A stretch of DNA of 64,000 bases from Nitrospirae bacterium JdFR-85 (GTDB lineage Bacteria > Nitrospirota > Thermodesulfovibrionia > Thermodesulfovibrionales > JdFR-85): positions 45,095 to 109,094 of the forward strand of contig MTOU01000027.1 of NCBI GenBank assembly GCA_002011745.1. Direction: 5' to 3'. Below are positions 11,641 through 17,277 of the stretch, one piece after another. The translations under genes and the position numbers were made by a program. Each line of letters begins with the position of its first letter. Within the stretch, counting starts at the first letter, position 1. The notes below the pieces were generated by a model, which worked only from the letters and a program-made list of their open reading frames with translations, was not told where the DNA came from and did no database searches.

Positions 11641-13593
11641 ATGAAGGCAATACGAGACCTCACTCTTACAACAAAATTTCTCTTTGGTGTTGGTATAATC
11701 ATCATACTATTCTGGTGTATATTTAGTATCTTTATATATGTCAACCTCAAGGATACAATTATAAAACAGACATATGAGAAGACCGATATCCTCTTTTCCC
11801 ATATCCAAGCAACCAAGGAATACGCAAAAAAGGTCCTGAGACCCAAGCTATTTCATGTGCTAAAACCAGATACATTTATAAGGGAAGGAATGTCTGTATC
11901 TTTTATAAATAAAAAAATAATGGCTGAATTCAAAAAATTCTTTCCTGACTTTCAATACAGAAGAGTATCTATAAATCCATTTAATCCTGAAAATACACCC
12001 AATAAGTTGGAACTGCAGTACATAATCAAATTCAAAAGGGATGGGGTTGACAAGATCAAAGAGATAGTCACAATAGATGGCAAAAAATACTATATCCAAG
12101 CAAGACCTATAGTGGTGGAAAAGGGATGTCTTGCCTGTCACGGCAGACCGGAAGATGCTCCAGCCACCCTTATAAAGATTTATGGGACAAAAGGAGGGTT
12201 TAATAAAAGACTGGGTGAGATAATAGGAGTTGAATCAGTGGCCATACCCCTTGAGGGTACATTTAATGAAATAAGTCGGATTGTACTTTCTATCTTTCTT
12301 ACAGGTGTGATAGGTGTCTTTTTCCTCTTTGTATCTCTCACATACTATATAAATAGAGTGGCTGTAAAACCTATAAAAAGCGTGAGTAATTTCTTTAAAT
12401 CAGTTGTTGATGGTCAGATGGGTCTTAATGCAAGATTCAATGTAAAGAGTAAAGACGAGATAGGGGAACTGGCAGCATCCTTCAATCAGATGATGAAATA
12501 CCTTAAAGAATCCCAAGACAAGTTAAGAGAGTCTGAGAAGAAATACAGACGTATATTCGAAGGCTCAAAAGATACAATCCTTGTGGCAGACTGCGATGGA
12601 TTTATTCAGGATATTAACCCCTCTGGTCTGGAACTCTTTGGATGCAAAAGCAAACATAGATTGATCAATGAGAAAACCCTTTATGAACTCTTTGAAGACA
12701 AGAGGAATTATGCCCAGTTTATAGAAAGCATGAAGACTAAGGGTTTCATAAAGGACTATGAAACCAGACTGAAAGGAGTGGATGGGAGAACTGTTGATGT
12801 ACTTATTACAGCAACAATACGTCTGGATGAAAAGAACCAGATATGTGGATATGAAGCAATAATAAAGGATATTACAGACTGGAAGAGGATTCAGGAGCAG
12901 ATGAAAGAGGCAGACCGGCTTGCATCTGTAGGGCAGCTTGCTGCTGGCCTTGCCCATGAGATAAACAATCCTCTTGGGATAGTAATGGGCTATACCTCTA
13001 TGCTTATTAAGGAAAACAACCATAATCCTGAACTGAAGGATGATTTAGAGATAATCTACAGAAATGCTGAGGCCTGTAAGAAAATCGTAGAAGATCTATT
13101 GAAATTTTCACGAAAATCAGAGACCAAACCAGAACCTGCTGATATAAATCAGATAATTGAAGAAGTGGTTGAGATACTTTCCTACAAATTTGAAGAGAAG
13201 GCGCTTACAGTAGGAAAAGAGTTTAACAATCTACCTCCTATAATGGTTGACAGGGAGAAGATTAGGCAGGTTTTTATAAACATTTTGATGAATGCATATC
13301 AAGCTGTTGATCTCTACGGTAGTATCAATATAAGGACATATAGTGTTGATCAAAAGATTATAATAGAAATAGAGGACAATGGTTGTGGGATTCCTGAAGA
13401 GGTTAAAGGCAGAATATTTGAACCTTTCTTTACAACTAAGGAACCTGGAGAAGGTACAGGTCTTGGTCTTTCTGTGAGTTATGGAATCGTCAAAGAACAT
13501 GGAGGTGACATCCAGTTTAGTTCAACTGTAGGAAAAGGTACTGTCTTCAGAGTAATTCTACCTGAGCAGGGAGAGCATGACTCAGAAGGATAA
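11641..13593 (+). CDS. membrane sensor histidine kinase with periplasmic c-type-haem (DUF3365/Tll0287-like) domain
   Basis: 650 residues. TM1 (about 13-34), then a periplasmic Tll0287/DUF3365-like domain containing C163-LAC-H167 (CxxCH), a covalent haem-attachment motif. TM2 (about 213-237), HAMP, a PAS domain (about 298-410), HisKA with H439 (AAGLAHEINNPLG) and a HATPase with NxG/GTGLGL boxes follow. It is likely a redox or ligand sensor using haem c outside the membrane. It overlaps the downstream NtrC-type regulator by 17 bases, so the two form a pair. It follows pheS by 24 bases with no clear terminator. The CxxCH is seen directly; haem sensing is inferred. Confidence 0.88.
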   Translation: MKAIRDLTLTTKFLFGVGIIIILFWCIFSIFIYVNLKDTIIKQTYEKTDILFSHIQATKEYAKKVLRPKLFHVLKPDTFIREGMSVSFINKKIMAEFKKFFPDFQYRRVSINPFNPENTPNKLELQYIIKFKRDGVDKIKEIVTIDGKKYYIQARPIVVEKGCLACHGRPEDAPATLIKIYGTKGGFNKRLGEIIGVESVAIPLEGTFNEISRIVLSIFLTGVIGVFFLFVSLTYYINRVAVKPIKSVSNFFKSVVDGQMGLNARFNVKSKDEIGELAASFNQMMKYLKESQDKLRESEKKYRRIFEGSKDTILVADCDGFIQDINPSGLELFGCKSKHRLINEKTLYELFEDKRNYAQFIESMKTKGFIKDYETRLKGVDGRTVDVLITATIRLDEKNQICGYEAIIKDITDWKRIQEQMKEADRLASVGQLAAGLAHEINNPLGIVMGYTSMLIKENNHNPELKDDLEIIYRNAEACKKIVEDLLKFSRKSETKPEPADINQIIEEVVEILSYKFEEKALTVGKEFNNLPPIMVDREKIRQVFINILMNAYQAVDLYGSINIRTYSVDQKIIIEIEDNGCGIPEEVKGRIFEPFFTTKEPGEGTGLGLSVSYGIVKEHGGDIQFSSTVGKGTVFRVILPEQGEHDSEG

Positions 13594-15675: not shown

Positions 15676-17277
15676 GTGCAAATGGCGCAATATCCAGAGA
15701 GAAAATGGTATACAGGTATGCTGTCCACTGAGGACTGGTGGGCAGTATGGATTGCTGTATTTTTCTTTTTTGTCTCCCTCCTAAATATATGGGGTATAGA
15801 TTTGGTAGGATGGATTACATATCCGACAAAGTGGGTATTCAGTCCACCTGAAGGTGGTAAGGGTGCCATAAGTCATGCCTTCTATGCCTTAGGTAAAAAA
15901 TACAGTGTTACTGCTAAAGGTTTCTATAAGGGACTTGGTTGGTGGAGTATTATCTGGACATATGTGATATTCGGTACTGCTCTTACAATCGGTGCTGCCT
16001 TCATGAGATGGAATCTGAAGAGATATATAATAGGCTTCACGATTATCTACTTCCTCACAATAGCGTGCTGGTTTATCGGCCACCATGCCTTCATAGCTGC
16101 TACAAAGGTGAACAGGCACAAGTATGGGCTTGACTTCTCCTTATCTCTTGGTGGAGGCGGCTCTTTCATAATAGCGCTGATAGTAGGATTAATAATCGGA
16201 AACTTCTTCAAAGGCTTTGCAAGGTATCTGAGTGAGGCTGCAAAACCTGAATGGTACATAAAGACAGCAATTGTTACTCTTGGTGTAAAACTGGGGTATC
16301 TTCCTATTAAGCTGTCAGCATTCTCCCAAAAGCTTGGAAAACAGGCTGCTGGACTCACCTTTGAACTATTTGTGGCAGGTGCTGCAGCCACAATTGTAGC
16401 CTACCTTATCTTCTGGCCAGGAGTGTATGTAATCTCAAGAAGGCTGTTCAAACTACCAAGGCAGACTGCTGCAACCTTGGCATCTGGTATCTCTATTTGT
16501 GGTGTCTCTGCAGCAGTAGCCACAGGTGCAGCAGTAAGGGCACGTCCTGTGGTGGCTATAATGGTATCTGCCTTGGTGGTCGTCTGGGCAGTGATCGAAT
16601 TGATAATTCTGCCAGGATTCTTCACCCATATCTGGCCTGGGACAAAGGACCCACTGGTGGCAGGTGCATCAATGGGAATGGCAGTTAAGACAGACGGCGC
16701 TGATGCAGCAGCAGGTGAGTTACTTGATGAATTTATGAGAACAAAGATAGAGATTGAGACAAACGGTGCTGTGAAATGGCCTGAAGGTATCATTACCGCA
16801 AGTGCTGTTATGACCAAGGTCTGGATTGATATGTTCATAGGTATCTGGGCATTCCTGCTTGCAGTGGTATGGGTATATAAATTTGAACGACGACCAGGAG
16901 AAAGGGTACCAGCCTCGGAGATATGGCATAGATTCCCGAAGTTTGTTATTGGTTACTTCTTCTGCTGGTTCTTCCTCCTCGCCCTGTATTTTGGTCCAGG
17001 ACAGTCTGGTGCACCTGAGGCAATGCCTTTCCTGAAGAGTGTGAAGGCAGGTGCTGTACCTGTAGAGAAAGGGATGAGGAAACTCTTCTTCATGCTCACA
17101 TTCTTGAGTCTGGGTATCATTACTGACTTCAAGAAACTCCGTGAGGCACAGTTCGGAAAGATGGTCTGGGTCTACTTCGTCTCCCTCTTTGGTTTCGTCA
17201 TACCTGTTGCTATCCTAATAGGCTATCTGTTCCATCATGGAATGCAACTGCCCAATATTGCCCAGTATGTGAAGTAA
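15676..17277 (+). CDS. divergent YeiH-family (putative sulfate exporter) membrane transporter
   Basis: 533 residues with about twelve hydrophobic segments. The family signature region SGISICGVSAAVATGAAVRA lies near residues 270-289. YeiH/UPF0324 proteins are named putative sulfate exporters on thin experimental support. This member is much longer than a typical one of about 340 residues. It has an added N-terminal region with extra helices and a large polar insert (about 315-365, DGADAAAGELLDEF). AGGAGG precedes the ATG. Sulfur-oxyanion transport is a family-level guess; the sigma-54 control and haem kinase suggest a redox-linked substrate. Confidence 0.8.
   Translation: MQMAQYPERKWYTGMLSTEDWWAVWIAVFFFFVSLLNIWGIDLVGWITYPTKWVFSPPEGGKGAISHAFYALGKKYSVTAKGFYKGLGWWSIIWTYVIFGTALTIGAAFMRWNLKRYIIGFTIIYFLTIACWFIGHHAFIAATKVNRHKYGLDFSLSLGGGGSFIIALIVGLIIGNFFKGFARYLSEAAKPEWYIKTAIVTLGVKLGYLPIKLSAFSQKLGKQAAGLTFELFVAGAAATIVAYLIFWPGVYVISRRLFKLPRQTAATLASGISICGVSAAVATGAAVRARPVVAIMVSALVVVWAVIELIILPGFFTHIWPGTKDPLVAGASMGMAVKTDGADAAAGELLDEFMRTKIEIETNGAVKWPEGIITASAVMTKVWIDMFIGIWAFLLAVVWVYKFERRPGERVPASEIWHRFPKFVIGYFFCWFFLLALYFGPGQSGAPEAMPFLKSVKAGAVPVEKGMRKLFFMLTFLSLGIITDFKKLREAQFGKMVWVYFVSLFGFVIPVAILIGYLFHHGMQLPNIAQYVK

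Follow-up and report, generated by a model that had tools for sequence, protein, structure and literature searches.

The nearest described relative of the system reported here is DVU0539-DVU0545 of Desulfovibrio vulgaris Hildenborough, in which genes for a kinase and a regulator neighbour an operon that encodes a PSE/YeiH-family transporter together with a small membrane protein, and whose regulator activates the DVU0542 promoter in Escherichia coli (PMC10102598, PMC3333781). We compared it, by description alone, with a locus of Nitrospirae bacterium JdFR-85 that lies in a 64,000-nucleotide stretch of contig MTOU01000027.1 (positions 45,095 to 109,094 of the forward strand, hereafter the window). 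In this locus, a membrane histidine kinase with a Tll0287-type sensor domain and an NtrC-type response regulator precede a dyad, a sigma-54 promoter-like site and a three-gene operon, which encodes a small membrane protein (named S63), a small DUF5395 protein (named D83) and a divergent YeiH-family transporter. Unlike that operon, the D. vulgaris operon has two universal stress proteins and a 133-residue membrane protein, and the D. vulgaris kinase-regulator pair and operon are divergent. Unless a main text is named, our statements on published work refer to the parts of each source that were available.

Three further described systems share features with the locus. The Salmonella YeiE-YeiH system also joins a YeiH-type transporter to a dedicated adjacent regulator and is needed for sulfite resistance, yeiH being the main gene for this trait; unlike in the window, the sensor is a cytoplasmic LysR-type sulfite sensor and not a membrane haem kinase, and the available text, which describes YeiH-family transporters as widespread and poorly characterised, mentions no small partner genes (PMC12880088). 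On the sensor side, a preprint reports that Tll0287/DUF3365 (sCache_heme) domains carry haem c, that a HAMP-linked sCache_heme protein without an axial cysteine binds nitric oxide (NO) tightly and releases it slowly, and that a stand-alone member with Cys/His ligation looks redox-like (PMC12889525). The signalling proteins of this group have the same domain as our kinase, with CxxCH, HAMP and kinase output and no axial cysteine, whereas they are described there without a transporter circuit; neither the available parts of that preprint nor those of the other literature compared name a target operon for an sCache_heme kinase. Finally, nine sigma-54 operons of D. vulgaris contain TSUP or PSE transporters (PMC4641369), which likewise places PSE-family transporters under sigma-54, and unlike in the window no small partner genes of the S63 or D83 type are named in the text available. 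From these nine operons and DVU0539-0545, it is already known in kind that sulfate reducers place this transporter family under sigma-54. The features of the present locus that appear to be new are the recurrence of a haem c kinase as YeiH partner, a dyad kept through transporter swaps, and the constant presence of S63 and DUF5395. The limited literature collection that we searched contained no paper naming DUF5395, and in its Tll0287/DUF3365, YeiH and sulfate-exporter literature no title or abstract opening described this circuit. As set out below, the comparison of genomes supports well, at the level of sequence, that the haem-kinase/NtrC/sigma-54/YeiH circuit is a dedicated unit.

A conserved cassette of S63, D83 and transporter

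We searched 61 genomes (that of JdFR-85 and 60 relatives) with the window transporter as query, joined the fragments of single genes by hand, and binned the resulting YeiH-family genes by identity into type i (at least 73%, 15 genes), type ii (48-54%, 14 genes), type iii (about 31-36%, 19 genes) and weak partial matches (7 genes); this list is incomplete, as the query misses the canonical YeiH of its own genome. Fetched loci are labelled L041 and so on, and genomes G002, G004 and G006. DUF5395 was found in exactly the 15 genomes with a type i transporter, directly upstream of it and on the same strand (hypergeometric p 1.4e-14, uncorrected for kinship), and an S63 gene was present at all 15 loci, with 57-79% identity. 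The three genes thus occur together in 15/15 loci, the window included, which argues against a chance arrangement, and by this comparison the S63-D83-transporter operon is a conserved unit. A first-pass annotation of the window, made from the letters alone, had named the conservation of the small genes beside the transporter beforehand as a point on which its proposal should turn, and they were kept in every one of these loci. On our choice of start codons, D83 starts no more than about 12 bases from the S63 stop in all 15 loci, overlapping it in four, and mostly lacks a GGAGG-type ribosome site of its own; the tight spacing and the scarcity of ribosome sites suggest coupled translation.

The association extends beyond these genomes. 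Scanning named genomes for DUF5395 gave 43 loci, 12 of them already among the 61-genome loci, with titles from Nitrospirae/Nitrospirota, Deltaproteobacteria, several Desulfobacterota groups and one Myxococcales. A transporter stood beside D83 in 40 of the 43 (counting L062, where it consists of fragments only) and S63 in 37. No transporter was found at L076, L087 (at a contig end) and L090, and no S63 at L076, L081, L086, L087, L090 and L093, partly because of contig ends; L081 and L089 run off their contigs. D83 of one Desulfobacterales subgroup is oriented convergently to S63 and the transporter yet still adjoins them. Beside this turned-round cassette, a gene judged by eye to be radical SAM-like recurs (L075, L080, L081, L083, L084, L087, L095).

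S63 matched no Pfam or NCBIfam family. Among the candidates scored, it had 560 relatives at E 1e-3 and D83 had 548, and the invariant or near-invariant residues include LExxDVxxxAExWxxxETxLVxxSxxxA in S63 and IPxW[IV]RxYxxHYFxR in D83. The transporter matched PF03601 with 58.4 bits (cut-off 24.5), and its predicted structure appears to resemble CPA/AT-type transporters (predicted local distance difference test, pLDDT, 86; 89 for the D83 model), while sequence searches of solved structures gave no credible match for the transporter, D83 or S63. The first-pass annotation had the transporter begin at GTG 15676 with 533 residues; because a GGAGG ribosome site and the relatives place the start at ATG 15682, we shortened it to 531. 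The terminator that it had called perfect is indeed so (Table 1). From the conserved arrangement, we regard S63 and D83 as predicted subunits or regulators of the transporter. A toxin-antitoxin reading of D83 was rejected, as its HicB-like neighbours are weak and the operon holds no further gene. Among the loci covered by the search, 14 distinct ones of type i have a fourth gene, for a membrane protein of about 121 residues, after the transporter, but the copy in the JdFR-85 genome is on a different contig.

The haem kinase pair and the control region

The kinase, the regulator, the dyad, the sigma-54 site and the three-gene operon, all noted in the first-pass annotation, were confirmed by sequence and Pfam (Table 1). 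Kinase and regulator are, judging by sequence, a pair. The Tll0287-like domain of the kinase (PF11845, E 3.6e-35, 121.9 bits against a cut-off of 24.1) is the sole match over the cut-off in its genome, and in a sequence search of solved structures the kinase resembled the Tll0287 structure 5b82 (E 2.3e-5); the other matches of that search were rejected as short chance similarities to repeat proteins, Tll0287 alone being credible. CxxCH was present in all 14 aligned kinases, and 13 of them had no further cysteine in alignment columns 141-290. With HAMP, a signalling output and no axial cysteine, the kinase has the build of the sCache_heme signalling group (Cluster 2 in the available text of PMC12889525), and it probably carries attached haem c. 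An earlier suggestion that the signal is redox state or a haem ligand is modified by that preprint, in which the property reported for a sensor domain of such build is NO binding and not generic redox sensing. The order of pheS followed by the kinase recurs in L044, L046, L051, L116, L128 and L129, and in L049 with a second kinase in between.

The control region varies with the regulator. Between the regulator stop and the S63 start, an exact TGCAA-N7/8-TTGCA was found in 10 of the 13 regulator-adjacent type i loci and in neither of the two without a regulator, and the remaining three of the 13 (L047, L052, L053) carry one-mismatch dyads. Over the 15 upstream regions we counted 46 half-sites, compared with a mean of 8.9 and a maximum of 22 in 500 base shuffles. 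In the 2.33-Mb genome of JdFR-85, the dyad of the window is the only site with fewer than three mismatches; a multi-operon regulon was rejected, given that the perfect dyad is unique and that 6 other sites have three mismatches versus 1 for a reversed control pattern. A sigma-54 site matching at least 9 of the 11 consensus positions was present in 12 of the same 13 loci; in shuffled 250-bp stretches, scores of at least 9 arise by chance in about 4% and of at least 10 in 0.25%. When the named loci were added, the site was found in 20/22 regulator- or kinase-adjacent loci versus 1/9 others (Fisher p 4.7e-5), with L062 and the turned-round Desulfobacterales subgroup excluded and with L091, whose contig starts within the kinase, scored as kinase-adjacent. 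In L053, the dyad and the promoter lie about 790-870 bp upstream, and a rhodanese gene with a signal-like N terminus sits between the promoter and S63.

Thus, of the dyad operators in the first-pass annotation, the TGCAA dyad and with it the sigma-54 site track the neighbouring regulator, and the dyad is the predicted binding site of the regulator, while the GGTGC/GCACC dyad near 15183 falls within the predicted transcribed leader. Several readings of this leader were rejected: the short reading frames after its ribosome-site-like element code unconserved peptides, Rfam gave a single match in the window, to a tRNA (56471-56542) and not to a riboswitch, and the folding z of -1.2, equalled or bettered in 25/200 shuffles, does not indicate a structured leader.

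Table 1. Features of the kinase-regulator-transporter locus, in positions of the window
Feature	Position	Strand	Basis or remark
pheS	10579..11616	+	upstream synteny anchor, outside the unit
Membrane histidine kinase, 650 residues	11641..13593	+	Tll0287/sCache_heme, HAMP, PAS, HisKA and HATPase_c (Pfam)
CLACH, predicted haem c attachment motif	12127..12141	+	sequence
NtrC-type response regulator, 465 residues	13577..14974	+	receiver, sigma-54 AAA+ and Fis-type helix-turn-helix (Pfam); Walker A
Upstream activating dyad GTGCAATATTTATATTGCAC, i.e. GTGCAATA-N4-TATTGCAC, predicted regulator site	14974..14993	+	
Extra half-site TTGCA	15008..15012	+	
Sigma-54 promoter-like site AGGCACATTAATTGCT, AGGCAC-N5-TTGCT	15086..15101	+	10/11 consensus positions
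Leader element AGGGGGTGA, ribosome-site-like	15152..15160	+	in 9/15 loci, 55-81 nucleotides upstream of the S63 gene
S63, 63-residue single-pass membrane protein, predicted transporter partner	15224..15415	+	
D83, 83-residue soluble protein, DUF5395	15419..15670	+	PF17373, E 1.6e-27, 96.3 bits (cut-off 25)
Divergent YeiH-family (PF03601) transporter, 531 residues	15682..17277	+	extra N-terminal part
Terminator-like hairpin, 17-bp perfect stem, 4-nucleotide loop	17283..17320	+	T run on +; also faces a convergent GGDEF gene

Kinase pairs beside other YeiH classes

In sequence comparison, such kinases were met repeatedly next to YeiH-family genes from three of the identity classes. Of the 55 YeiH-family genes that the window transporter retrieved, 26 had a Tll0287 domain (from 132 PF11845 matches over the cut-off) no more than 9 kb away, where about 1.3 would be expected by a rough estimate, and in 25 of the 26 it was upstream on the same strand; by class, these were 9/15 of type i, 5/14 of type ii, 12/19 of type iii and 0/7 of the weak matches. 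The clearest swap is L116 (G002, another genus of the family), in which an orthologous pheS-kinase-regulator run (kinase 61%, regulator 67% identical) is followed by the same dyad as in the window and then by a type iii transporter that is only about 33% identical. The kinase pair, which the first-pass annotation joined with the transporter in one unit, is therefore not confined to this transporter, since this orthologous pair precedes another YeiH subfamily. The same dyad, with a sigma-54 site, precedes the type iii gene in L115 and L119 (kinase 46-47%, regulator 54-56% identical), and where the regulator is 40-44% identical to that of the window, the dyad upstream of the type ii (L107, L108) or type iii (L121) gene reads GTTCC...GGAAC instead. 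A sigma-54-like site scoring at least 9 was found in 12 of 13 such loci (L106-L110, L115-L121, L124).

The other classes also have small genes next to the transporter. A single-pass protein of 53-56 residues follows the type ii gene in all nine loci (L106-L114); weak yet connected matches relate it to S63, namely to the S63 profile (E 3e-4 to 4e-3 in 6/9) and, from a 53-residue query, to the S63-like proteins encoded in the turned-round subgroup (E 1.9e-5 to 3.8e-4). Directly after type iii genes, a protein of about 70 residues with four conserved cysteines was found in 8/11 loci (L115-L122 among L115-L125), and the one tested, that of L117, matched no Pfam family. By eye, the type ii transporters (L016-L029) carry two insertions, a small domain behind the first helix and a charged, coiled-coil-like segment close to the C terminus. 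The 14 type ii genomes are among those without DUF5395; types i and ii occur together in 0/61 genomes (p 0.011), which may only reflect lineage and was not used as evidence. In L109 (3732-7038) and L110, the Tll0287 kinase pair is followed by a universal stress protein, a PF03601 transporter, a 48-residue membrane protein, a second universal stress protein and a rhodanese, a run much like the described DVU0542-0545, and both loci also hold a second PF03601 gene.

Rhodanese genes with signal-like N termini, as judged by eye, occur in or beside operons with all three classes, namely in L053 for type i, in L109 and L110 for type ii (about 50% identical) and in L125 for type iii (about 33%), and point to sulfur chemistry outside the cytoplasm. 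The rhodanese of L125 has an in-frame TGA (7198-7200) at the presumed catalytic cysteine of its L109 relative (FY-TGA-NGVKCWR vs YCNGVKCWR), and from this sequence it is possibly a selenocysteine rhodanese. In the genome of JdFR-85, dsrA was over the cut-off, making a sulfate-respiring life likely, although dsrA alone leaves the direction undecided. This genome also encodes a second, canonical YeiH-family protein elsewhere, whose gene adjoins a large kinase gene, and three Prismane-family proteins. The latter were not used as evidence for NO handling, since the Prismane-family Pfam also includes CO dehydrogenases.

A candidate sulfite-export circuit and its alternatives

Dissimilatory sulfite reductase is inhibited by nitrite, and nitrate injection, which yields nitrite, serves in oil fields as a means to limit sulfide (PMC5478722). 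In the circuit that we propose, nitrite or NO would block dissimilatory sulfite reductase and sulfite would accumulate inside the cell. The inner-membrane haem c kinase would detect NO, a similar haem ligand or a redox change outside the cytoplasm and would signal via its NtrC-type partner, which would act at the dyad with sigma-54 to switch the operon on, and the YeiH-type transporter, with the two small partner proteins, would export sulfite. The NO-binding build of the domain, the role of Salmonella YeiH against sulfite and the action of nitrite on dissimilatory sulfite reductase together make the coupling of a periplasmic haem sensor to a sulfite exporter coherent. Because the published proteins are linked to those of the window by family only, we infer the ligand (NO), the substrate (sulfite) and the direction (outward) by analogy. 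Taken whole, the reading that the haem kinase senses NO or something similar and that NtrC and sigma-54 switch on a likely sulfite-exporting YeiH-type transporter is a tentative one, to which we give slightly less than even weight. A stronger version, in which sulfate reducers and related bacteria would carry a poison-triggered safety valve, with the haem c kinase sensing NO/nitrite chemistry outside the membrane and a three-protein efflux complex, including S63 and DUF5395 as small subunits not described before, dumping the sulfite that accumulates at a blocked sulfite reductase, and in which the circuit was kept while deeply diverged YeiH subfamilies were swapped, each with its own small partner, seems to us unlikely.

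Several observations weigh against the proposed circuit. The genomes compared are linked by kinship, and the counts taken from them are non-independent. No Tll0287 domain lies within 9 kb of 6/15 type i, 9/14 type ii, 7/19 type iii and 7/7 weak genes. Among the six of type i, two have the kinase left at pheS (in G004 and G006, where the regulator and the cassette are located elsewhere), one has a contig ending inside the kinase, one is in a 75% complete genome, and two are also without a regulator. No sigma-54 site scoring at least 9 was found in L041, the one miss among the 13 regulator-adjacent type i loci, or in L116, the clearest swap and the one miss among the 13 loci of the other classes. 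The sigma-54 contact loop of the regulator is GAFTSA (14237-14254) instead of GAFTGA. GAFTSA is present in all 13 regulators adjoining type i (L041-L049, L051-L053 and the window) and also in L070, L071 and L116; elsewhere, 16 regulators have GAFTGA and L124 has GSFTGA, and L066, whose kinase has no Tll0287 domain, matched no motif. The transporter scored 30.3 bits against TIGR00698, the NCBIfam model of the YeiH subfamily (cut-off 232.6), and is therefore a divergent PF03601 member outside that subfamily. The canonical YeiH-family gene of the JdFR-85 genome has no Tll0287 domain nearby, and this genome gave no nrfA match. Rhodanese genes are few, with 4 distinct loci found by two rhodanese queries among the window and 77 fetched loci. 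Also, the word exporter is absent from the main text of a D. desulfuricans nitrate/NO transcriptome study (PMC5701242), and transporter mutants of the related cluster in D. vulgaris are fitter under molybdate (PMC10102598), a phenotype that fits oxyanion uptake or exchange as well as export.

This phenotype, which would fit a lower oxyanion entry in the mutants, speaks for the view that the same circuit serves a carrier that takes up or exchanges sulfate, sulfite or thiosulfate and is produced when the redox state outside permits sulfur respiration. Sulfate reducers require the uptake of sulfur oxyanions, and CPA/AT-like folds comprise symporters as well as antiporters. However, dsrA is over the cut-off in 53/61 genomes and the cassette is present in 15 only, a distribution too narrow for a core uptake system; a survey covering the sulfate transporters of sulfate reducers (PMC5840216) does not use the word YeiH in its main text, and YeiH of Salmonella protects against sulfite (PMC12880088). 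We consider a carrier for uptake or exchange unlikely. Somewhat less unlikely, in our judgement, is a different signal: instead of NO, the haem kinase would sense a sulfur ligand bound to the haem c iron (sulfite, sulfide or persulfide) or simply the redox state, and the operon would answer its own substrate. The simplest logic by which a transporter operon could be controlled is sensing of its substrate, the few rhodanese genes in or beside related operons would suit it, and an open sixth haem position is likely on sequence grounds because 13 of the 14 kinases lack an axial cysteine. The tight ligand demonstrated for a signalling member is, however, NO, and no sulfur ligand is mentioned in the available text (PMC12889525).

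The small proteins, too, could be explained otherwise. S63 and D83 might not be parts of the transporter and might be kept by co-regulation only, D83 being a translation regulator or antitoxin-like (its first 65 residues are weakly HicB-like) and S63 a separate membrane protein. The D83 model gave no Foldseek match at E 1e-3, and its middling Z shows no function; the window operon has no further small gene, D83 adjoins the transporter even when turned round, and the S63-like proteins of 53-56 residues accompany every type ii transporter examined in L106-L114, so we regard co-regulation alone as improbable.

If the proposed export circuit is true, it would represent a new kind of control on YeiH-type transporters. 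The locus joins YeiH transporters, DUF5395 and an sCache_heme kinase in one circuit and gives the two small proteins a probable partner, and it suggests a concrete way in which sulfate reducers might withstand nitrite or NO.

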